Source: Sphingomonas tagetis
Lineage (GTDB): Bacteria > Pseudomonadota > Alphaproteobacteria > Sphingomonadales > Sphingomonadaceae
Direction of reading: 5' to 3'
DNA length: 64,000 nucleotides
NCBI RefSeq assembly: GCF_024211275.1
Contig: NZ_JAMLDX010000003.1
Location: 186,001-250,000, forward strand
The notes under the pieces were generated by a model. The model did not search any database. It had not been told where the DNA came from and saw only the letters and a list, made by a program, of their open reading frames with translations. The translations under genes and the position numbers were made by a program. Positions 7,782-64,000 of the stretch are shown piece by piece. The stretch's first letter is position 1, and every line of letters begins with the position of its first letter.

Positions 7782-7785
<4 letters not shown>
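5716..7785 (-). CDS. Hybrid sensor histidine kinase: REC-PAS-HisKA-HATPase-REC
   Basis: 689 residues. A receiver domain comes first ([10 protein letters not shown], phospho-acceptor D78, FKPVEP), then a helical coiled segment (about 150-190), a PAS domain (about 190-305, with PAC-like [17 protein letters not shown]), and a dimerisation/phospho-acceptor domain with H331 in [12 protein letters not shown] HATPase_c domain follows ([35 protein letters not shown]), then a C-terminal receiver with D622 (LTDYAMP). There are no membrane segments, so it is cytoplasmic. The proposed TTG start at 7785 sits 5 bases after GGAG and overlaps the upstream kinase stop by 4 bases; ATG 7776 is the alternative. 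An N-terminal receiver lets the upstream kinase or another donor phosphorylate it. Confidence 0.9.
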
Positions 7786-13163
<5,378 letters not shown>

Positions 13164-13488
13164 CAATCACTCCTTGCATCTCCCTCCCGCGAGAAAAACG
13201 CAATTAGAACAACCCCCCGGCTGTGCGCGGGATGTAGCAGATGTGCTGCGGCTCGCGCGAGAAAAAACAGGGTTACCCAAGCCAGCCTGTCGATAACCGG
13301 GTTTTGCCCGGCAGAATCCGGGCGTCGCGGAACGAACGTCACGCTTCGCGGCGGGAGACATTCACGGGTTCGCTAGCGACGCATCGGAGAAATCGACTGG
13401 CGGCATACGCCTCGCCGGGGCAGGCCAGTCCCGCCATGCCGCTGGATCGGCTGGACGGGCATGACCCGGAGCAGGCGGGGAGAGGGTG
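13164..13488. promoter_or_regulatory. Divergent intergenic region between the giant kinase and the glycoside locus
   Basis: This 325-base region has no convincing gene on either strand. An 11-base direct repeat, CGCGAGAAAAA, occurs at 13188-13198 and 13256-13266 and could be a paired regulator site. The kinase ribosome-binding site AAGGAG and the GGGGAGAGG of the plus-strand hydrolase mark its two ends. I could not assign promoters with confidence. Confidence 0.4.
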
Positions 13489-49104: not shown

Positions 49105-49893
49105 GTGGCGCATTCGCTAAAGAATGTGGTCGGCAAGAGCAGGGAAGGCGAGGATTTGGCGAGCGTACTGACGACCTTGGCTGATGGGGTACGGCCGGAG
49201 CTGGGCCGCAACCTCACATATGGCCTGCTCGACAATCTGGGGCGGGCGATCGTGACCGGCCGGTTCGAGCGCGAAAGCTTCCCGACCGAGGCGGAACTGG
49301 CCAAGCAGCATGGGGTCAGCCGTTCGGTCACGCGTGAGGCGGTGAAGATGCTGACCGCCAAGGGTCTGCTCAGCGCGCGGCCGCGGCAGGGGACAGTGGT
49401 TCAGCCGACCACCTCGTGGAACCTGTTCGACACCGATGTGTTGCGCTGGCTGCTCGAACGGCAGTTTTCGGTCGAGCTGCTGAAACAGTTCAACCAGCTG
49501 CGCGTCGCGATCGAACCCGAGGCGGCGGCGCTGGCGGCGCAGTTTGCGGGTGAGGACGATCTGCAGCGGATCGATCAGGGCCTCGGACGGATGGAGGCCG
49601 CCGACCGCGGTCTCGACGACACGCTGGAATCGGACATCGCGTTCCACGTCGCCATCCTGCGCGCGTCGCGCAATCCCTTCTACGCGCAGTTCCGCGACGT
49701 CGTCGGCACCGCGCTGCGCACCTCGATCCGCTTCACCAACCGGATCAAGGGGCGGACCGCCAGCGTCGCCGATCACGCCGCGGTGCGCGACGCGATCATG
49801 GCGCGCGACCCTGACGGCGCCCGCAATGCGATGCGCTCGCTGATCGGCGATGTGCTCGACCTGATCGAGGAAAAGGGCGACACGGCGGTCTGA
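49105..49893 (+). CDS. GntR/FadR-family regulator (DgoR-like)
   Basis: 262 residues from GTG 49105; a later TTG near residue 17 is possible since conserved sequence begins about residue 33 (LGRNLTYGLLDNLGRAIVTG). Winged helix FPTEAELAKQHGVSRSVTREAVKMLTAKGL is followed by the all-helical FCD effector domain with metal-binding His/Asp (DIAFHVAILRAS, DHAAVRDAI). Divergent from symporter-dgoK-dgoA, it is the likely repressor responding to a galactonate-type sugar acid. The mutarotase relic begins at the base after its stop. Confidence 0.88.
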   Translation: MAHSLKNVVGKSREGEDLASVLTTLADGVRPELGRNLTYGLLDNLGRAIVTGRFERESFPTEAELAKQHGVSRSVTREAVKMLTAKGLLSARPRQGTVVQPTTSWNLFDTDVLRWLLERQFSVELLKQFNQLRVAIEPEAAALAAQFAGEDDLQRIDQGLGRMEAADRGLDDTLESDIAFHVAILRASRNPFYAQFRDVVGTALRTSIRFTNRIKGRTASVADHAAVRDAIMARDPDGARNAMRSLIGDVLDLIEEKGDTAV

Positions 49894-50391
49894 CCGGAAG
49901 CGGCCGTCGGGGCTGACATAGCGCAGCGTGACCGAAGCGGCCGGGCCGTCCTTCACCGACACGATCTCCCACAGCACCTTGTCGAAGCCGGTGGTGCCGC
50001 CGTGCAGCGCGTTCTTTCCGTTGTTGATCGGCGTCTGATAGGTCTTGCCGTCCAGCGTGAAGCGGCCGCCCGCGAGACGGTTGGCGAAGCGGCCGACGGT
50101 GGTGCCGAAATATTGCGGCTTTTCCAGATAGTCGCGGATATTGTCGTAACCGAGCGCGACGTCGGCGCGCTTGCCGGTGCGATCGGGCATCACCACCGAC
50201 TGCAGCGTCGCGCCCCAGGCGATGACGGTGGCGGTGACGCCGCGCCCGTTGGCAAGCGTGACCGCACCGACATTGCGGCCATCCTGCAGCTTGCCGAAGA
50301 CCGACCTTTTGGCGGTCGCCGCCTCGGCGCTTCCCGCCGCGATGCAGGCCGCCGCAGCCGCCGTCAAAAACAGTGCCTTGTTGCTCGCCAT
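49894..50391 (-). pseudogene. 3'-truncated aldose 1-epimerase (mutarotase) gene
   Basis: From ATG 50391 a signal peptide (ALFLTAAAAACIAAGSAEA) leads into a GalM-type mutarotase: GVTATVIAWGATLQSV, FGTTVGRFANRLAGGRF and NALHGGTTGFDKVLWE. At TLRYVSPDGRF the homology stops exactly where the convergent GntR gene ends; only 166 codons of an expected 350-390 remain, and the frame runs on into GntR antisense. The catalytic His and Glu of the C-terminal half are gone. A deletion that removed everything between here and the GntR stop explains it. Confidence 0.8.
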
Positions 50392-50404
50392 CGAACGCTC
50401 TCCT

Positions 50405-51258
50405 CTATCCGCCATATTTTCCGGTGCCCGGCCACGGCAACCGGGATCGATTTCGAACAGGGCGCCGCCGTGCGGCTCGTCCACGCCTTCGCCCGCCGAA
50501 GTGACGAACATGCGGTCGAGACCGGGGCCGGCGAAGGTACAGCTGGTGATCTGGCTGGCGGGCAACGCGATCGAACGGTCGCGGATACCCTCCGGCGTGA
50601 ATCGCGTGACGCAGCCCGCGCCCCAGCAGGCGACCCACAGCCCGCCCTGCGCGTCGAAGGTCATGCCGTCGGGATTGCCCCAATCGGCCTCGAACATGAT
50701 GAATGGCTGGCGCTGGCCGAGGCTGCCGTCGTCATTGACGTCGAAGCGGAAGATCGTCGCAAGCGCCGTATCGGTGTGCAGCAGGAAGCGGGCTTGCGGG
50801 TCGATCGCGGGGCCGTTGGCGATCGTATAGGGGCCATCGGCATGGACGATCAGCCCATCGGGGTCGATGCGAAAGAAGGCGCCGCTTGGCCGGTCGCAGC
50901 TTGCCGGCATCGTCCCTGCCCAGATGCGGCCGAGCGAGTCGGCCTTGGCGTCGTTGAGGCGGTTGCCGGCGATGCCGCGATCGACCGATCCGATCGGCGC
51001 GCGGCGGTTCGCGGGCAGGTCCAGCCGAACGATGTCGAGCCCGATCCCGGCGACGAAGCCGCCACGCTCGCGTTCGATGATCCACGCGGCATAGTCGGGC
51101 TGTTCGAAGCTTTCGACCTGGCTGTCCGCCAGCGACAGGCGGTTGATGCGGTGATCGAGAATGTCGACCCAATAGAGCGCATCGTCGCGCGCCGACCAGA
51201 GCGGACCTTCGCCCAGCCGGTCGCCGCGCTCGCGCTCGATCACGCGCACGTCAGCCAT
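50405..51258 (-). pseudogene. SMP-30/gluconolactonase-family sugar lactonase with a C-terminal frameshift
   Basis: From ATG 51258 (overlapping the dehydratase stop) the six-bladed propeller is complete: LGEGPLWSARDDALYWVDI, NDAKADSLGRIWAGTM, GNPDGMTFDAQGGLWVACWG, FVTSAGEGVDEP and LFEIDPGCRG. After CRG the frame misses its stop and enters the mutarotase start. In the neighbouring frame the sequence reads PGTGKYGG and stops at 50405-50407, a normal ending for the family. The span is 854 bases, one short of a whole number of codons, and the slip lies in the C/G run near 50427-50433. The frameshifted product would be fused to the mutarotase relic and may still fold. It would hydrolyse galactono- or arabinono-lactone. 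Confidence 0.75.
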
Positions 51259-53063
51259 CAATGGCTGTCCCGCGGCAGCCCCTGAGTCTGGGCGATGCGC
51301 TGATATTTGACGGCCAGCTCGATCACCGCGCCGCCATCGAACTGGCCGGTGATGGTGCGGTGGATTTCCTGCCACGGCGTCTGCGAGGCCGGGACATAAT
51401 CGGGCGAGCCGGCCAGCTCAGCGCGCCGCCGTGCCAGCTCAGCCTCATCGACCAGCATGTCGGCGCTGCGCCGGGCGAGATCGATGCGGATGCGGTCGCC
51501 GGTGCGGACCAGCGAAAGCCCGCCGCCGACCGCGGCCTCGGGCGCCGCGTTGAGGATCGACGGGCTGCCGCTGGTGCCGGACTGGCGGCCGTCGCCAAGG
51601 CAGGGCAGCGCGTTGACGCCGGCCTGGATCAGCGCGACGGGCGGGCGCATGTTGACGACTTCGGCACCGCCCGGATAGCCGATCGGGCCGGTGCCGCGCA
51701 TGATCAGGATCGAGTGTTCGTCAGCGCCGAGCGCGGGATCGTCGATGCGCGCATGATAATCCTCGGGGCCGTCGAAGACGATCGCATTGCCCTCGAACGC
51801 ATCGGGGTCTGCCGGATTGCTGAGATAGCGGTCGCGGAATTCGGGCGAGATCACGCTGAGCTTCATCACGGCATTGTCGAACAGATTGCCCGACAGGACG
51901 GTGAGGCCGGCGGACGGCTTGAGCGGATCGGCCAGCGGGCGGATCACATCGGCATCCTGCGTCGCCGCGCCGCCGACATTCTCGGTGACGGTCTTGCCGT
52001 TCGCACCCGTCACCGTGCCGTCGAGCAGGCCTGCGTCGAGCAATTGCCCCATCACCGCCGGCACGCCGCCGGCGCGGTAGAAGTCCTCGCCGAGATAAGT
52101 CCCGGCCGGCTGGAGATTGACGATCAGCGGCACCCCGGCGCCGTGCGATTCCCAATCCTGAAGGGTCAGTTCGACACCGATGTGACGCGCGATCGCGTTG
52201 AGGTGGATCGGCGCGTTGGTCGATCCGCCGATGGCCGAATTGACGCGGATCGCATTGAGGAACGCCGCGCGCGTCATGATGTCCGACGGCTTGCGGTCGG
52301 TCTGGACCATCTCGACGATCTGGAGCCCCGTGCGATAGGCATTTTCCTGGCGGTCGCGATAGGGCGCGGGGATCGCTGCCGACCCCGGCAACGACATGCC
52401 GAGCGCCTCGCACAGCGAGTTCATCGTCGTCGCCGTGCCCATCGTGTTGCACCAGCCGGTCGAGGGTGCCGACGATGCAACCAATTCGATGAAGCCCTTG
52501 TAATCGATCTCGCCGGCGGCGAGCATCTCGCGTGCCTTCCACACGATCGTGCCAGAGCCTGTGCGCTCGCCCTTGAACCAGCCGTTGAGCATCGGGCCGA
52601 CCGACAGCGCGATCGCGGGGATGTTCACGGTCGCGGCCGCCATCAGGCAGGCTGGCGTGGTCTTGTCGCAGCCGATCGTCAGCACCACGCCGTCCATGGG
52701 ATAGCCGTAAAGCGACTCGACCAGGCTCAGATAGGAGAGGTTACGGTCGAGGCCCGCGGTCGGGCGCTTGCCCGTCTCCTGAATCGGGTGCACCGGAAAT
52801 TCGATCGCGATGCCGCCTGCGTCGCGAATGCCATCGCGCACGCGCTTGGCGAGCTCGATATGATGCCGGTTGCAGGGAACGAGGTCGCTGCCGGTCTGGG
52901 CGATGCCGATGATCGGGCGGCCCGATTGCAGTTCTTCCAGGCTGATCCCGTAGTTGAGATAGCGTTCGACATAGAGCGCGGTCATGTCGGGCTTGTCGGG
53001 GTCGTCGAACCACGCGCGCGAACGCAACTCCCGTGGCCCATTGCTTCCCTGCCCCAAAATCAC
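51258..53063 (-). CDS. IlvD/Edd-family sugar-acid dehydratase
   Basis: 601 residues from GTG 53063 (GAGAGGAA upstream; a slightly later start is possible). Iron-sulfur ligands lie in [10 protein letters not shown] and GWCNTMGTA, and the family segments [14 protein letters not shown] and GCRG-like [11 protein letters not shown] are present. The length and [26 protein letters not shown] match the pentonate/hexonate dehydratases (arabonate, xylonate, galactonate) rather than the IlvD of branched-chain synthesis. With the lactonase (1-base overlap) and the divergent dehydrogenase it forms an oxidative sugar pathway. Confidence 0.87.
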
Positions 53064-57870: not shown

Positions 57871-59226
57871 GTGGCGACTGAAGGCCATGTCGACTTCAAC
57901 GGCTTCATGGAAGGCGTGAAGCGGCGCAATCCGCACCAGCCGGAGTTCGTCCAGGCGGTGCAGGAGGTCGCCGAGGACATTTTCGACTTCATCCGCGACA
58001 AGGCGGACTATCACGACCAGCAGATCCTGCGCCGCATCGCCGAGCCGGACCGCATCGTTTCCTTCCGGGTGTGCTGGGAGGACGATCGCGGCAATGTCCG
58101 CGTCCAGCGCGGCTGGCGGGTGCAGAACAACAATGCGATCGGTCCTTACAAGGGCGGCATCCGCTTCCACCCGAGCGTGAACGAAAGCGTCCTCAAGTTT
58201 CTCGCTTTCGAACAGACGTTCAAGAATGCGTTGACCGGCCTGCCGATGGGCGGCGGCAAGGGCGGCGCGAACTTCAATCCCAAGGGCAAGAGCGTGCGCG
58301 AGATCATGCGCTTCTGCCAGAGCTTCATGACCGAGCTGTACCGTCACATCGGCGCGGACGTGGACGTGCCGGCGGGCGATATCGGCGTCGGCGCGCGCGA
58401 GATCGGCTTCATGTTCGGCCAGTACAAGCGCATCACCAACCACTTCACCGGCGTGCTGACCGGCAAGGGTCTCGAATATGGCGGCTCGCTGATCCGGCCC
58501 GAGGCGACCGGCTATGGCGCGGTCTATTTCCTGGCCGAGATGCTCGCGGTCAAAGGGCAGGACCTGACCGGCAAGACCGCGGTGATCTCCGGCTCCGGCA
58601 ACGTTGCGACCCATGCCGCGGAGAAGCTGGTGCAACAGGGGGCGAGGGTCGTCACGCTGTCGGATTCGGCGGGCTTCGTCCACGATCCTGCCGGACTCAC
58701 GCAAGAGAAGATCGACTGGGTCAAGGCGCACAAGACTCACCGGCGCGGGCGCATCGAGGAGTATGTCGAGGCATTTCCCGGCGCGACCTTCCATTCCGGC
58801 CAGACGCCGTGGGGTGTGCCCTGCGACGTGGCGCTGCCCTGTGCGACGCAGAACGAACTGTCGGGCGACGATGCCAAGGCGCTCGTCGCGAATGGCTGCA
58901 TCGCGGTCGCCGAAGGCGCGAACATGCCGACCGACCTTGCCGGTGTGCACGTCTTCAAATCGGCCAGGACTCTCTTCGCGCCGGGCAAGGCGGCCAATGC
59001 CGGAGGCGTCGCGGTGTCTGGCCTCGAGATGAGCCAGAATTCCGAACGGCGGTCGTGGAAGGAGGCAGAGCTCCAGCAGATGCTCAAGGACATCATGGCC
59101 GGCATTCACCAGCGCTGTGTCGCCTACGGTGAGGGCGAGGGCGGCTATATCGACTATGTGAAGGGCGCCAACGTCGCCGGCTTCAAGAAGGTCGGTGATG
59201 CGATGCTCGCGTTCGGGGTGGTATGA
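57871..59226 (+). CDS. gdhA: NADP-type glutamate dehydrogenase
   Basis: 451 residues from GTG 57871, chosen for GGGAGGGG 3-10 bases upstream and because similarity to E. coli GdhA (447 residues) starts here. Substrate and catalytic regions QFKNALTGLPMGGGKGG-like and DVPAGDIGVGAREIGFM are intact, with the nucleotide motif SGSGNVA and CATQNEL, AEGANMPT and APGKAANAGGV. It aminates 2-oxoglutarate with ammonia. Its stop overlaps the start of the PycTM-like gene (ATGA). Confidence 0.93.
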   Translation: MATEGHVDFNGFMEGVKRRNPHQPEFVQAVQEVAEDIFDFIRDKADYHDQQILRRIAEPDRIVSFRVCWEDDRGNVRVQRGWRVQNNNAIGPYKGGIRFHPSVNESVLKFLAFEQTFKNALTGLPMGGGKGGANFNPKGKSVREIMRFCQSFMTELYRHIGADVDVPAGDIGVGAREIGFMFGQYKRITNHFTGVLTGKGLEYGGSLIRPEATGYGAVYFLAEMLAVKGQDLTGKTAVISGSGNVATHAAEKLVQQGARVVTLSDSAGFVHDPAGLTQEKIDWVKAHKTHRRGRIEEYVEAFPGATFHSGQTPWGVPCDVALPCATQNELSGDDAKALVANGCIAVAEGANMPTDLAGVHVFKSARTLFAPGKAANAGGVAVSGLEMSQNSERRSWKEAELQQMLKDIMAGIHQRCVAYGEGEGGYIDYVKGANVAGFKKVGDAMLAFGVV

Positions 59227-59762
59227 CCGGCGAAACGGAACGCGCGCCGGTGCTGTCGCCCCAGGCGATCCATCTCATTCGCACGACAACCACGGCCAAC
59301 CTCACGTTGAGCCAGATGGCCGACCAGAAGGCGAGCATCCTGATGGGCGCGAACTTCGTCGTCTTCACCGTCGCGGTCGGTCAGGCGGGGCGGGGCGGCG
59401 TGCCGCCGGCGTTGCTGGTGCTGGCCTGCGCGGCGTTTCTCTCCGCGCTCTGTGCGGTGGTGGCGGTGCTGCCCGCGATCCGGCCGAGCAAGGTCGCCCC
59501 CGGCGGCGAGAATATCCTGTTCTTCGGCGTGTTCAGCCAGATGAGCGAGGAGGAGTTCACCGCCCGCGCGTTCGAGGCGCTGGCGAGCGACGAAACGGTC
59601 ATGCGCGCCATGCTTCGCGACATCCACCAGAACGGCATGGTGCTTCAGCGGAAGAAATACCGTTTTCTGGGGCTGGCTTATCGCGTCTTCTTGATCGGCC
59701 TGACGCTGACGCTCGTCACTTTCCTGATCGACAATCGCGCGAACCTGCCCCGGCTCTTCTGA
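59223..59762 (+). CDS. PycTM (Pycsar effector-like, DUF5706) membrane protein
   Basis: 179 residues. The N-terminal helix LIRTTTTANLTLSQMADQKA and the following SILMGANFVVFTVAV match the PycTM family pattern. Three hydrophobic segments lie at about 39-55, 62-85 and 150-168, joined by a soluble part with ENILFFGVFSQMSEEEF and RDIHQNGMVLQRKKYRFLGL. In Pycsar defence, PycTM effectors respond to cyclic pyrimidine nucleotides. No pyrimidine cyclase is in the window; instead the gene is translationally coupled to gdhA. It could be a housekeeping relative rather than a defence effector. Confidence 0.75.
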   Translation: MTGETERAPVLSPQAIHLIRTTTTANLTLSQMADQKASILMGANFVVFTVAVGQAGRGGVPPALLVLACAAFLSALCAVVAVLPAIRPSKVAPGGENILFFGVFSQMSEEEFTARAFEALASDETVMRAMLRDIHQNGMVLQRKKYRFLGLAYRVFLIGLTLTLVTFLIDNRANLPRLF

Positions 59763-59768
59763 CGGCTC

Positions 59769-60686
59769 TCAGCGGATACCGAGCATCGCGGCCTGTTGAC
59801 GCAGCATGTCCGACTTGCCGGGATTTGCGGCCAGCGCCTGCTGCAACGCCTGCGCGGCCTTCTCGGGCTGGCCGAGCGTCATGCGGCTGCGCATCAACAT
59901 GACCCAGCCATCGACGTTGCCCGGCTCGGCCTGTAGCCGCGCTTCGAGCCGACCGACCATGCCCTCGGCCATGCCGCGCTGCTCGCTGGGGGGAAGTTTC
60001 GCTGCGGCTTGCAGGTCCTGCGCGGTGGGACCGGGGATGGCGCGGGTTGCGACTGCCGATTGCGGGGCGGGCTGCACGACGGCGGCGAGGCGCGGTGCGA
60101 CATCGATCTTGTTGATCTTGCCGACCTGTTCGATCGTGCGGCGGAGGTCCTTTTCCCATGGCGCGTCGGCGGGTGTGTCGGCGAGCAAGGCGAGCCAATC
60201 CTCGATCGCGCCGGCATGGTCGCCGGCCAGATCCTTTTTCACCGCGAGAAAATAGCGTGCGCGCGGGTCCCTGGCGTCGAGCGTGATCGCACGCTCGAAA
60301 TTCGCGGCCGCGGCCGCCGGCATCGGGTCGCGCTCGCTCGCCAGCACGCGCGCTTCGCCCAGCGCGGACCACAGCGACGCCGTGGCCGGGCTGAGCTCAG
60401 TCGCCTTCTCATACGCTGCCGCCGCATCGTTGAAGCGGCCGGCATCGAAATAGGCCGCCCCGAGCGCGGCCCATGCGGCACTGTCCTGCGGATTGTCGCG
60501 CGAGCGCTTTTCGAGCGCCGCGATCGGGTCTTCAGCAGCGCCGGCCATCTGCGGCGCGGTTGCCGGGGAAAGCGGCACATCGTGATCCCGCTTGACCGCA
60601 TAACCGATGGCGAGGCCCAGCAGGATGATCGCGGCGAAGAACACGATCCGCCCGGTTCGCGAGACGCGCATCCCCTGTTGTGTCAT
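59769..60686 (-). CDS. Membrane-anchored TPR protein (CcmI/NrfG-like)
   Basis: 305 residues from ATG 60686 (GGGGGCGGA upstream; ATG 60671 possible). One N-terminal membrane helix (IVFFAAIILLGLAIGYAV) is followed by TPR units (SAAWAALGAAYFDAGRFNDA, TASLWSALGEARVLA, DPRARYFLAVKKDLAGDHAG and NVDGWVMLMRSRMTLGQ). The DPIAALEKR-NPQDSAAW and final TPR patterns resemble the periplasmic domain of CcmI/CycH, which chaperones apocytochrome c. That would fit the neighbouring electron-transfer operon, from which it is divergent. Confidence 0.77.
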   Translation of the reverse strand: MTQQGMRVSRTGRIVFFAAIILLGLAIGYAVKRDHDVPLSPATAPQMAGAAEDPIAALEKRSRDNPQDSAAWAALGAAYFDAGRFNDAAAAYEKATELSPATASLWSALGEARVLASERDPMPAAAAANFERAITLDARDPRARYFLAVKKDLAGDHAGAIEDWLALLADTPADAPWEKDLRRTIEQVGKINKIDVAPRLAAVVQPAPQSAVATRAIPGPTAQDLQAAAKLPPSEQRGMAEGMVGRLEARLQAEPGNVDGWVMLMRSRMTLGQPEKAAQALQQALAANPGKSDMLRQQAAMLGIR

Positions 60687-60772
60687 TCCGCCCCCAGGGT
60701 CCATAGTTGTCCAAGTCTGGATGACGGGGTGCGATGATGCAACCGGCGTCCACACGGCGAGGGGGGACAGCG

Positions 60773-63217
60773 GTGACGGAACGTCTTCGCATTGCCATTG
60801 TCGGCTCCGGCCCGGCCGGGATGAGCGCCGCCGCCCGCGCCGCGCAGCTGGGCCTCTCCCATGTGTTGCTCGAAAAGACCGGGCACCTTTGCGACACGAT
60901 CTTCAAATACCAGAAGGGCAAGGACGTCATGGCGACGCCCGCCTCGCTGGTGCTGCGCTCCGACCTCGATTTCGAGGCGGGCAAACGCGAGGCGGTGCTC
61001 GACACCTGGAACCGGCAAACCGCGGACGCCGCGATCGCCGTCCGCCTCAATGCCGAGGTCGCGAAGATCGAGGGCGAGAAGGGCGCGTTCGTCCTGACGC
61101 TGAAGGGCGGCGAAGCCGTCCATACCGAAGCGGTGATCCTCGCCATCGGCACGCAGGGCAATCCCAACCTGCTGCGCTGCGATGGCGCGGGCCTGCCGCA
61201 TGTCCAATATCAACTCGACGATCCCGGCGCGTTCCTCGATGAACACATCACCGTCATCGGCACGGGCGATGCCGGAATCGAGAACGCGCTCGGCCTCGCC
61301 GCCGACCCGGTGCAGCGCAACACCGTCACCATCCTCAACCGCGGCACCGATTTCGCCCGCGCCAAGCCTGCCAACGTCAAGCTGCTGACAGAGGCCGAAG
61401 CCGCCGGACGCATCCGCATCCGCACCGAGACGACCCCGGCGCAAGTCCGCTCCGGCGAGCTGCTGCTCGACACGCGCGACGGGCAGGAGACGATCCGCTG
61501 CGACCGCATCATCGCGCGCATGGGCTCGACCGCGCCGCGCGCGTTTCTCGAGGCATGCGGCATCGCCTTCACCAGCGAAGACCGTGAGGCGTTCCCGGTG
61601 CTCTCGCCCGAGTTCGAAACGACCCGGCCGGGCATCCACGTCATCGGCGCGCTGGCCGGTTATCCGCTGATCAAGCATTGCATGAATCAGGGCTATGACG
61701 TGGTCGAGTTCCTCAACGGCAACACCGCGCTCAAGCCTGCCGACGAACCGATGCTGGCGGCGAAATTCGCGAGCCTGCCGGGCAAGCGCAGCGTCGACGA
61801 GTGGCTGACGCTGTTCGGCAGCAATATCGGCATTTTCGCCGACGTGTCCGCGCTCCAGCTACGCGAACTGATGCTGGACAGCGAGGTGAAGCGCTTCGGC
61901 CCGGGCGACGTGATCTTCGAGCGCAACGAGACCGGCGCCTCGCTGTTCGCCATCGCATTGGGCGCGGTGCGTGTCGAGGTCGACAGAAACGACACCGCGA
62001 AGACGGTGCCGATCGACCAGGGCTCGATCTTCGGCGAGGTCGGGCTGATCTCCGGCCGCCGGCGCGGCGCGACGGTGCGCGCGGCGGAACCGACGGTGGT
62101 GGTCGAACTGACGCGCACCGCGGCGCTCAAGCTCATCGCCACCGTGCCTGCCGCCGGACGGGCGATCGCGCGCATTTCGATCGAACGGCAGCTGCTTCAG
62201 ATCTTCGGATCGGGGCTGACCAGCGAGGATGTCGCCGAGCTGGTCGCACAAGCCGAAGTGCAGACCAAGCGCGCCGGCGAAGTCTTGCTCGCCGAAGGCG
62301 ATGACGGCAACGATCTCTATGTCATCCGCCGCGGATCGATGGTCGTCGAGAAGCTGATCGGCGGCAAGCCGGTATTCCTCTCCTATCTGCCGGCCGGCTC
62401 CTATGTCGGCGAGATGGCGCTGATCGACCGCGGGCAGCGCACGGCGACGGTCAAGGCGGCGATCAAGTCCGAAGTGATCCGCCTGCCCGGCGAGGCGTTC
62501 CTGCGTCTGCTCGAACGCAAGCCGCAATTGCTGGACAAGGCGCTGACCGACATGGCGGCGCGGCGCGACGTCAACGCCTTCATCGAAGGGCGCAAGGACA
62601 ATTTCTCCGGCGCGGTCGACCTGTATTCGGAAACCGCGCAGTTTCTGGTCGACAACGGCATCGGCGAAGCGACCGACGTGCTGCTGATCGACGAGAAACT
62701 GTGCGTGGGCTGCGACAATTGCGAAAAGGCGTGCGCCGACAGCCATGACGGTCTCTCGCGCCTCAACCGCGAGGCGGGCAAGACGTTCGCGCATCTGCAC
62801 GTGCCGACCAGCTGCCGCCATTGTGAGCATCCGCACTGCATGGCAGACTGCCCGCCCAATGCGATCAAGCGCGGGCCGGATGGCGAGGTCGTCATCGACG
62901 ACAGCTGCATCGGCTGCGGCAATTGCGAGCGCAACTGCCCCTATGGCGTGATCCGCATGGACAGCGTGCCGCCGCCCAAGCCGTCATTGCTATCCTGGAT
63001 GTTCCTCGGACGCGGGCCGGGACCGGGCGAACCATCGAAGAAGTGGCGCAAGGAGCATGCCGCCAAGGGGCCTGCGCCCAAGCAGGCGATCAAATGCGAC
63101 ATGTGCTCGGGCATCTCGGGCGGCCCGGCCTGCGTCCGCGCCTGTCCGACCGGGGCGGCGATCCGCGTGGCGCCCGAAGCCTTCCTCTCGGTCGCACGGC
63201 TGGCGGACGAGACCTGA
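60773..63217 (+). CDS. Chimeric FAD/NAD(P) oxidoreductase - two cNMP-binding domains - four-cluster ferredoxin
   Basis: 814 residues from GTG 60773, supported by GAGGGGGG upstream; an earlier ATG at 60734 adds 13 poorly supported residues. Residues 1-335: thioredoxin-reductase-like flavoprotein (VGSGPAGMSAAARAAQLG, second nucleotide motif VIGTGDAGIENALG) without a CxxC redox pair. Residues about 350-480 and 490-620: two cyclic-nucleotide-binding folds (DQGSIFGEVGLISGRRR; LPAGSYVGEMALIDRGQRTA). Residues about 640-800: sixteen Cys in four 4Fe-4S motifs of the DmsB/HybA type. It likely passes electrons from NAD(P)H through FAD and Fe-S to the membrane partner encoded next, gated by a nucleotide or other ligand. 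Confidence 0.87.
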   Translation: MTERLRIAIVGSGPAGMSAAARAAQLGLSHVLLEKTGHLCDTIFKYQKGKDVMATPASLVLRSDLDFEAGKREAVLDTWNRQTADAAIAVRLNAEVAKIEGEKGAFVLTLKGGEAVHTEAVILAIGTQGNPNLLRCDGAGLPHVQYQLDDPGAFLDEHITVIGTGDAGIENALGLAADPVQRNTVTILNRGTDFARAKPANVKLLTEAEAAGRIRIRTETTPAQVRSGELLLDTRDGQETIRCDRIIARMGSTAPRAFLEACGIAFTSEDREAFPVLSPEFETTRPGIHVIGALAGYPLIKHCMNQGYDVVEFLNGNTALKPADEPMLAAKFASLPGKRSVDEWLTLFGSNIGIFADVSALQLRELMLDSEVKRFGPGDVIFERNETGASLFAIALGAVRVEVDRNDTAKTVPIDQGSIFGEVGLISGRRRGATVRAAEPTVVVELTRTAALKLIATVPAAGRAIARISIERQLLQIFGSGLTSEDVAELVAQAEVQTKRAGEVLLAEGDDGNDLYVIRRGSMVVEKLIGGKPVFLSYLPAGSYVGEMALIDRGQRTATVKAAIKSEVIRLPGEAFLRLLERKPQLLDKALTDMAARRDVNAFIEGRKDNFSGAVDLYSETAQFLVDNGIGEATDVLLIDEKLCVGCDNCEKACADSHDGLSRLNREAGKTFAHLHVPTSCRHCEHPHCMADCPPNAIKRGPDGEVVIDDSCIGCGNCERNCPYGVIRMDSVPPPKPSLLSWMFLGRGPGPGEPSKKWRKEHAAKGPAPKQAIKCDMCSGISGGPACVRACPTGAAIRVAPEAFLSVARLADET

Positions 63218-64000
63218 TGGCATCGACGCCGCGCGCCGCCAGGCAGACCAGCCGCCAGATTTCCACGGACCATGAGGGCTTCCTGCGCCATCGCGGCTTC
63301 CGCTGGCTCAAGCTCTCGGCCCTGCTCTGTCTCGCCGCGCTGGCGGGCTATGTCGCCGCCGATGTCGAACCCCGGCCCAATGGCGGAAGCTGGTATGGCT
63401 ATACGCTCGGGACCATCGGCGCAGCGCTGATCCTGTGGCTGGCGCTGCTCGGCATCCGCAAGCGGGCGATGACGCGCGGATCATGGTCGCTCAAGGCGTG
63501 GACCTCGGCGCATGTCTACCTCGGCCTCGGCCTGATCGTCATCGCCACGCTGCACACCGGCTTCCAGTTCGGCTGGAACGTCCATACGCTTAGCTTTGCC
63601 CTGATGGTGCTGGTGATCGTGTCGGGCATCTTCGGCGTCGTCGCCTATGCCACGCTGCCCGCCGCGCTCAGCGGCAATCGCGAGGAGATGACGCAGGGGC
63701 AGATGCTCGAGGCGCTCAAGGCGGTCGATCGCCAGCTCAACGATGCGGCCCAGCCGCTGTCGCGCGATCACGCCGACTTCGTGCTGTCGGCGTTGGGCGA
63801 GGGGGCGCTGTCGGGCGGGCTGTGGCGGCGGCTCAGCGGCAATTACCGCAACAGTGCGACACAGGCGGCGGTCGATGCCTTCAACCGCATCCACGCCGCG
63901 CACTCGGCTGAGCCAGCGATCCAGCGGGTCGAGGCGCTGCTCCAGCGGCGGCTCGCCCAGCTCGACCGGATGCGGCGGCACATGCGGCTCAAGGCGCTGC
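63217..64000 (+). CDS. Membrane cytochrome b-like protein, partial (cut by window end)
   Basis: Its ATG overlaps the upstream TGA by one base; 261 codons are visible and the frame is open at the window edge. Four hydrophobic helices are at about 30-48, 64-82, 98-118 and 125-148. His residues in SAHVYLGLGLIVIATLHTGF and NVHTLSF are candidate haem b ligands. A charged, helical soluble part follows (about 150-261). As partner of the Fe-S/flavin chimera it is probably the quinone- or cytochrome-reducing membrane subunit. Further subunits likely follow outside the window. Confidence 0.72.
   Translation, partial: MASTPRAARQTSRQISTDHEGFLRHRGFRWLKLSALLCLAALAGYVAADVEPRPNGGSWYGYTLGTIGAALILWLALLGIRKRAMTRGSWSLKAWTSAHVYLGLGLIVIATLHTGFQFGWNVHTLSFALMVLVIVSGIFGVVAYATLPAALSGNREEMTQGQMLEALKAVDRQLNDAAQPLSRDHADFVLSALGEGALSGGLWRRLSGNYRNSATQAAVDAFNRIHAAHSAEPAIQRVEALLQRRLAQLDRMRRHMRLKAL

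Follow-up and report, generated by a model that had tools for sequence, protein, structure and literature searches.

A proposed electron-entry flavoprotein with fused cyclic nucleotide-binding domains in a multihaem cytochrome gene cluster of Sphingomonas tagetis

The stretch of DNA analysed here (the window, 64,000 nucleotides) covers positions 186001-250000 of contig NZ_JAMLDX010000003.1 (C23) of Sphingomonas tagetis, whose genome measures 4.68 Mb. Close to its end lies a gene for an 814-amino acid (AA) chimeric protein (window 60773..63217, +) in which Pfam, alignment and an AlphaFold2 (AF2) model distinguish a flavin reductase, two cyclic nucleotide-binding (CNB) domains and an iron-sulphur (Fe-S) domain with four [4Fe-4S] sites. 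The open reading frame (ORF) spans 60734..63217 (+), with a GTG start probably at 60773. On the same strand, the flavin/NAD(P)H domain occupies residues 1-330 (60773..61762), CNB1 residues 345-475 (61805..62197), CNB2 residues 480-605 (62210..62587) and a DmsB/HydN-like 16-Cys Fe-S domain residues 640-795 (62690..63157). This is the anatomy put forward in an original prediction made from the letters alone, and it is real: a flavoprotein resembling thioredoxin reductase (TrxR) but lacking the CxxC pair, two CRP-type sensor folds and a DmsB-like ferredoxin with sixteen cysteines are confirmed within one chain. The protein is the sole full-length match of its kind in the genome, and its nearest full-length relatives among the matches listed are Novosphingobium proteins (best 81% identity). 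With moderate confidence, we propose that it is the cytoplasmic part through which electrons enter a membrane-bound transfer complex, under the control of a cyclic nucleotide, most likely cAMP.

The flavin domain matches Pyr_redox_3 (E 1.4e-26) and Pyr_redox_2 (E 1.1e-24), and in the AF2 model (mean pLDDT 74, with the flavin and CNB parts mostly at 80-96) it adopts the fold of YpdA/Bdr and of the TrxR-type ferredoxin-NADP reductases (FNR). Foldseek aligned these 330 residues with YpdA chains at a TM score (target) of 0.82-0.86 (7a76_D: E 7.7e-26, 0.84) and with an FNR2 chain of B. cereus at up to 0.78, other FNR chains giving 0.48-0.65. Unlike these enzymes, with which it shares ~20% identity, the domain is fused to CNB and Fe-S domains, and it differs from YpdA proper in scoring 113 bits on the NCBIfam model (TIGR04018; cut-off 339.9). 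Lack of CxxC is a further trait in common with YpdA and FNR. A thioredoxin reductase is ruled out by the absence of CxxC from residues 1-340, where cysteines stand at 40, 136, 243, 262 and 303, and NCBIfam matches to AegA/YgfT-type reductases were limited to the Fe-S part and lay far under the cut-off. In two other genomes (G435:C1:55011-57479 and G558:C1:367197-369689) the match to the chimera is broken at residue 256-271 and frames of 863 and 839 AA stay open, apparently because the flavin domain there carries a short insertion.

The Pfam family cNMP_binding (PF00027) matches the chimera over two stretches (E 2.7e-33, 114 bits, cut-off 27.5). As in CRP/FNR and other CNB proteins, a canonical cassette for cyclic nucleoside monophosphates (cNMP) is present, reading F-G421-E422-V-G-L-I-S-G-R-R-R431-G-A-T in CNB1 and V-G546-E547-M-A-L-I-D-R-G-Q-R556-T-A-T-V in CNB2. 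Unlike CRP/FNR, the chimera has no DNA-binding domain detectable by Pfam scan, which rules out a regulator of that type, and its effector would be an electron-transfer chain. We aligned 90 distinct chimeras, namely those of the 80 homologous loci on which our locus counts are based (kept of 522 confirmed candidate stretches from genome contigs), the S. tagetis protein, the copy on plasmid pMSHV and L100-L107 (L099 was left out). Gly421, Glu422 and Arg431 of CNB1 and Gly546, Glu547 and Arg556 of CNB2 are invariant in 90/90; the original prediction had singled out these cassettes for inspection, and no loss of ligand-binding residues is seen. The three CNB1 residues are likewise invariant in an alignment of ten diverse sequences (A3), two of them only 31-32% identical, in which the 14-residue CNB1 cassette, an interval of our own choosing, holds 6/15 invariant CNB-part columns (hypergeometric p 1.5e-5). 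In L103-L107, five homologues that belong to other classes within the phylum, identity is 67-76% in the CNB1 cassette versus 34-40% for whole CNB1, and 52-71% in the CNB2 cassette versus 37-40% for CNB2 overall. The solved relatives of the CNB region in a phmmer search (60 of 161 listed) include the known cAMP or cGMP binders SthK and CAP and regulatory domains of PKA and PKG. Of the seven PF00027 matches in the genome, two lie in the chimera and five in CRP/FNR-like proteins; read by eye, those five all lack Gly-Glu at the cassette, which leaves the chimera as the sole recognisable cyclic nucleotide receptor of its type there.

It might be argued that the CNB domains are structural, serving dimerisation or docking in an ordinary NAD(P)H-driven trans-membrane electron shuttle, ligand-free and under no messenger control. 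CNB folds can lose the cassette, as the five other cNMP-domain proteins of the genome illustrate, and the second CNB domain is degenerate both in genome G280 (L109), where the Glu is lost, and, as judged by eye, in related shorter proteins (L151-type). We nevertheless consider this explanation unlikely, because the contact residues of the chimera are invariant and, in distant homologues, conserved much more strongly than the remainder of the CNB domains. Even less probable, and in our judgement very much so, is that the domains bind haem, flavin or an ordinary nucleotide and thereby sense the redox state or metabolites. Other ligands are known for CNB-type folds, and the residue following the CNB1 cassette Arg is Gly instead of Ala, Ser or Thr in 85/90 sequences; against this, CNB2 has R-T or R-S, then A-T, in most aligned sequences, and a class III cyclase shares the cluster with a class III phosphodiesterase-like gene, as described below.

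Fer4-type 4Fe-4S dicluster models match the C-terminal part of the chimera, where all 16 cysteines, in four groups, are kept in 90/90 aligned proteins; HydN (61 bits) and DMSO_dmsB (54 bits, cut-off 214.1) are sub-cut-off NCBIfam matches. The next gene encodes a predicted di-haem cytochrome b-like membrane subunit (window 63217..64000, +, running on to 64092 beyond the window; C23 249217-250092). It starts within the stop codon of the chimera gene (..TGATG..), a one-base overlap that bears out the claim of a membrane haem-b-like protein following without a gap. Its family match is weak (Ni_hydr_CYTB/cytochrome b561, E 1.3e-4 for the part in the window and 0.0029 for the full protein, under the Pfam cut-off; PF01292, cytochrome b561, 17.8 bits versus a cut-off of 30.1), but four of its histidines are positioned to hold two b haems. 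His 99, 113 and 269 are kept in 85/86 sequences and His 283 in 86/86; they form two pairs, each with a spacing of 14 residues, on two helices, as is usual in families with two trans-membrane b haems. The sixteen cysteines in four groups and the adjoining membrane-protein gene recall DmsB, HydN and HycB; the chimera departs from these in the di-haem cytochrome b-like character of its partner and in the CNB domains fused in front, and, unlike in DmsB-type systems, no molybdoenzyme was found by Pfam among the cluster genes scanned.

Beyond the window, the row continues along the contig (C23 positions). An FHA-decahaem cytochrome with one hydrophobic helix and 10 CXXCH motifs (250103-251794, +; FHA 24 bits, cut-off 20.7) and a class III phosphodiesterase-like protein (251808-252656, +; PF00149) are followed on the opposite strand by a 1310-AA cytochrome with a hydrophobic N-terminus, 10 CXXCH motifs and LVIVD repeats (252662-256594, -), a putative outer-membrane barrel of 616 cysteine-free AA (256594-258444, -), an HbpS-like protein that begins with a lipobox-like sequence (258441-260405, -), a C554-type cytochrome carrying 4 CXXCH plus one CX4CH (260402-261739, -) and a FecR protein (261899-263119, -); last comes a CHASE2-class III cyclase (263603-265852, +; PF00211). 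Multihaem cytochromes, suggested earlier as genes to look for downstream, are thus present (proteins with 10, 10 and 4 CXXCH). In the decahaem protein all 20 CXXCH cysteines are kept in 82/82 sequences and ten complete motifs in 80/82. The Gly-Arg of its FHA domain, whose Arg presumably has a role in phosphopeptide binding, is also kept in 82/82, so that this protein may be a second control point. Upstream of the chimera and divergent from it, the predicted CcmI-like gene is found as well: a CcmH/CycH (CcmI)-like TPR protein (window 59769..60755, -; start uncertain, possibly ~60671) with PF23914 (TPR_CcmH_CycH) at E 9.7e-19 and one N-terminal hydrophobic helix in a hydropathy scan. Between this gene and a Glu/Leu dehydrogenase-type gene, we observed a PycTM-family membrane protein of the Pycsar effector family (window 59223-59759, +; PF18967, E 1.8e-24), which lies upstream of the chimera in 10/66 loci with at least 5 kb upstream.

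The core of this row is strongly conserved. Wherever a locus extends at least 1.5 kb downstream (74/74), the cytochrome b gene directly follows the chimera, which answers the question of a conserved membrane partner, and the FHA-decahaem gene is downstream in the same proportion (74/74). The TPR gene is upstream and divergent in 75/77 loci with at least 1.5 kb upstream, the phosphodiesterase is present in 65/68 loci with at least 3.5 kb and the large cytochrome in 49/63 with at least 7.5 kb; the flanks of the 80 loci end ~8 kb out, so the outer genes of the row are less well covered. Plasmid pMSHV of Sphingobium herbicidovorans carries the TPR gene, the chimera, a hypothetical protein in the cytochrome b position, a 'cytochrome c3 family' protein and a metallophosphoesterase, with a 'multiheme c-type cytochrome' and a hypothetical protein on the opposite strand.

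Enzymes that could make and remove such a messenger both appear to be encoded in the cluster. The cyclase (E 3.7e-16), 14.4 kb downstream of the chimera, is the only PF00211 match of the genome, in which no class I cyclase was found (other cyclase classes were not searched); it is therefore the only recognisable source there. Its catalytic Asp, Asp, Lys, Asn and Arg are kept in 6/6 aligned cluster cyclases, which differ in the motifs CDI, IDKFIGD and YSLIGDTVNLTSR only by I/V, F/Y and T/A. Solved relatives include CyaB and the adenylate cyclase 1wc0/1wc1, which we take to be CyaC; Lys and Ser at the two base-selecting positions, which we assume to specify ATP, suggest that ATP is the substrate. 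The phosphodiesterase-like protein matches PF00149 (E 2.1e-16), has Rv0805 as its best solved relative (E 5.7e-23) and keeps the metal motifs D-x-H, GD, GNHD, HH and GHxH in 72/72 sequences (71 distinct). By profile and motif, the two proteins thus belong to the CyaC/CyaB and Rv0805/CpdA/SpdA enzyme types; they are set apart from those by their place within a multihaem cytochrome cluster, and the substrate class of the phosphodiesterase is putative.

Cyclase and chimera also occur together across genomes. Our order-level sample comprised 296 genomes, in which the chimera was called at E <= 1e-100: 75 genomes have the chimera, 113 a class III cyclase, 75 both, 38 the cyclase alone and 183 neither. 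A class III cyclase is hence found in 75/75 chimera genomes versus 38/221 others (Fisher p 5.6e-42, kinship ignored). Among the genomes of the own genus listed by name, the figures are 3/3 with the chimera versus 2/22 without (p 0.004), a contrast that includes all cyclase-positive genomes and may leave out some cyclase-negative ones. The cyclase lies within 40 kb of the chimera in at least 43/75 genomes, in 41 of these downstream at 14-33 kb; such linkage counts are lower bounds, as they cover the cyclase matches listed. By chance one would expect ~3-4.5 genomes, a rough estimate for random positions in a round 3.3 Mb genome with an assumed 1.7-2.5 cyclases. This association likewise argues against purely structural CNB domains, and together with the enzyme genes of the cluster it strengthens the idea, already part of the original prediction, of allosteric control over electron flow. 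That idea is now supported at the level of sequence, the control itself being what we infer.

The receptor-wire unit extends well beyond the sphingomonads' order. We queried a phylum-level sample of 398 genomes with the CNB-CNB-FeS unit; at E <= 1e-25 there are 88 matching genomes, in 61 of which the match is confined to the CNB or the Fe-S part, and spanning matches (>=380/460 positions) occur in 27 genomes of 13 families. In the surroundings of 15 distant loci from 13 genomes (L103-L109, L160-L167), a cytochrome b relative and a multihaem cytochrome follow the CNB-FeS gene in 13/15, with no such follow-on at L105 and L163. Two layouts recur. In type A (L103, L104, L106, L107, L160, L161) the flavin domain is present, the CNB pair sits between donor and Fe-S wire, and the multihaem protein is of the FHA type with 9 or 10 CXXCH; L103 in addition keeps the HbpS-like protein (44% identity) and the barrel (55%), and L161 part of the large cytochrome. 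In type B (L109, L162, L164-L167) ORFs of 553-607 AA leave no room for a flavin domain, the CNB pair stands ahead of the Fe-S domain, and the multihaem protein has a Cys-rich N-terminus and 10 CXXCH (7 in L166, where it is broken off at the contig end). At L109 an FNR-type flavoprotein ORF, read by eye, lies upstream of the flavin-less CNB-FeS gene (L109:5971-7233, +), and the electron-donor module has apparently been replaced by this separate gene. L108 represents a reduced form that has a tetrahaem protein. Chimera and cytochrome b form one ORF in L106 (3052-6423; 1123 AA) and L107 (9850-13206; 1118 AA). These fusions are the strongest argument for electron transfer from the Fe-S domain to cytochrome b and, with the 74/74 loci, they rule out chance adjacency of the two genes. 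As a separate observation, L105 (genome G001) holds a second, orphan chimera copy (L105:9485-11962, +) without cytochrome b or decahaem neighbours, and a 1106-AA cyclase-domain ORF (L105:4472-7789, -) is divergent from it, ~1.7 kb upstream.

From the sequences one can read the anatomy of the chimera, its cassettes, the cyclase and phosphodiesterase motifs, the row of chimera, cytochrome b and decahaem genes, and the cyclase co-occurrence. In the scheme that we build on them, we infer the identity of the ligand, the gating step, the direction of flow, the role of the outer-membrane genes and the terminal acceptor. NAD(P)H would reduce the FAD domain of the chimera, from which electrons would pass through the four [4Fe-4S] clusters to the two b haems of the membrane partner; these would reduce the ten c haems of the membrane-anchored FHA-decahaem cytochrome, and further multihaem cytochromes and the putative barrel would carry electrons to the periplasm or cell surface. 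This path is drawn from the domains present, the order of the genes and the fused proteins, and its direction from the reductase fold. The two CNB domains, placed between flavin and Fe-S domain, would decide whether electrons cross: ligand binding would move the connecting helices (459-478 and 584-606 in the AF2 model), and the simplest gate would be an opened or closed flavin-FeS contact. The ligand would be made by the CHASE2-cyclase with its FecR neighbour, the CHASE2 sensor part facing the periplasm, and would be removed by the phosphodiesterase-like enzyme encoded in the gene row of the chimera. Feedback of the electron chain on cAMP is plausible by analogy, CyaC of Sinorhizobium being described, in the abstract of PMC10463352, as coupling cAMP synthesis to the respiratory redox state.

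Besides the degenerate second CNB domains and the CNB1 Gly already named, several observations weigh against this scheme. The Fe-S part of the AF2 chimera model is mostly at pLDDT <50 and thus unreliable, and Foldseek returned no PDB fold under E 0.2 for the AF2 model of cytochrome b (pLDDT 76). The phosphodiesterase scores higher on the SpdA model (NF050112, 141 bits, cut-off 400) than on that of CpdA (PRK11148, 93 bits, cut-off 225), falling below the cut-off in both cases, and 3',5'-cAMP may therefore not be its substrate; SpdA of Sinorhizobium is presented as a 2',3'-cyclic nucleotide enzyme in PMC4222275. In 32/75 chimera genomes there is no cyclase within 40 kb among the matches listed, and the order-level contrast carries no correction for phylogeny. 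Within flanks of at most ~8 kb, the cyclase is near the chimera in 7/80 loci (5 full-length and upstream). At the phylum level, a class III cyclase is found in 27/27 genomes with a spanning match versus 234/371 without (p 9e-6), but the high background (261/398) makes co-occurrence a weak test there.

The outer part of the chain invites a different reading, in which the complex is under cyclic nucleotide control but has a local or periplasmic job, such as supplying electrons to repair, to the reduction of haem or metals or to the detoxification of oxyanions, instead of extracellular transfer. Sphingomonads are typically aerobes, and haem or small oxyanions could be the targets of the HbpS-like protein and the C554-like cytochrome. 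Matches of the large cytochrome to known families are confined to short CXXCH stretches or LVIVD repeats. The barrel, which has no match in Pfam, the only family library scanned for it, is suggested only by its size, lack of Cys and C-terminal Tyr. Within flanks of at most ~8 kb, the barrel is near the chimera in 23/80 loci, mostly as a partial gene, and HbpS-like, C554-like and FecR genes in 3/80, 2/80 and 3/80. Yet a 1310-AA, 10-CXXCH LVIVD protein beside a putative barrel is organised like outer-membrane conduits, and we regard the periplasmic alternative as a possibility deserving attention, though somewhat doubtful.

Returning to electron transfer across the envelope, the cluster may resemble the Mtr and Pcc systems in combining a predicted inner-membrane entry point, an anchored decahaem cytochrome and a large multihaem cytochrome beside a putative outer-membrane barrel. 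No Mtr family was matched above cut-off in Pfam (cytochromes and barrel) or NCBIfam (cytochromes only), the Mtrc-MtrF domain match of the decahaem protein reaching 19 bits (cut-off 30). The differences lie in the entry, where an NAD(P)H flavin-FeS protein bearing CNB domains takes the place of a quinol dehydrogenase, and in the FHA domain of the decahaem protein. Fusion of a CNB domain to an enzyme has a precedent in Pat, the mycobacterial acetyltransferase regulated by cAMP; its model scores 76.8 bits on the chimera (cut-off 460). The component parts are of known kinds, and their combination would be a variant of trans-envelope electron conduits. We found no description of a CNB-flavin-FeS fusion or of a CNB-FeS/cytochrome b/multihaem c cluster in the full-text literature, as covered in part by titles and abstract openings, with subscription papers and preprints outside. 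The main text of a survey of outer-membrane multihaem proteins (PMC11475568) does not mention Sphingo, Erythrobacter, Novosphingobium, Alphaproteobacteria, cyclic nucleotide or FHA.

More broadly, and tentatively, the distant loci may point to a widespread class of second-messenger-gated electron wires. In such complexes, tandem CNB domains would be fused to an Fe-S subunit feeding a di-haem b/multihaem c trans-envelope chain, with cyclase and phosphodiesterase in the cluster, as the sole recognisable class III cAMP circuit of some bacteria, acting on electron transport and not on transcription. The donor module would be interchangeable, either a fused YpdA-like flavoprotein or apparently a separate upstream FNR-type gene, with CNB-FeS, cytochrome b and multihaem c staying together.

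Two further genes of the window deserve brief mention. At 7785-13166 (-) lies a hybrid histidine kinase of 1794 AA that contains nine or ten consecutive HAMP domains, a GAF domain and two receiver domains, and at 49120-51375 (-) an SMP-30/gluconolactonase-type domain and an aldose 1-epimerase domain share a single ORF.

Should our proposal hold, it would assign a concrete function to chromosomal relatives of the chimera and to plasmid copies, of which 11/12 full-length ones are annotated 'hypothetical protein' and the twelfth 'cyclic nucleotide-binding domain-containing protein', and bioelectronic circuits under ligand control would have a natural blueprint in the receptor-enzyme fusion. Regulation of trans-envelope electron conduits is usually ascribed to transcription and substrate supply. 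Here, the outward electron current would be switchable on the time scale of cAMP turnover, in response to outside signals received via CHASE2 and FecR and not by way of gene expression. The one genome examined in this respect suggests, moreover, that some sphingomonads may lack a classical CRP target for cAMP.

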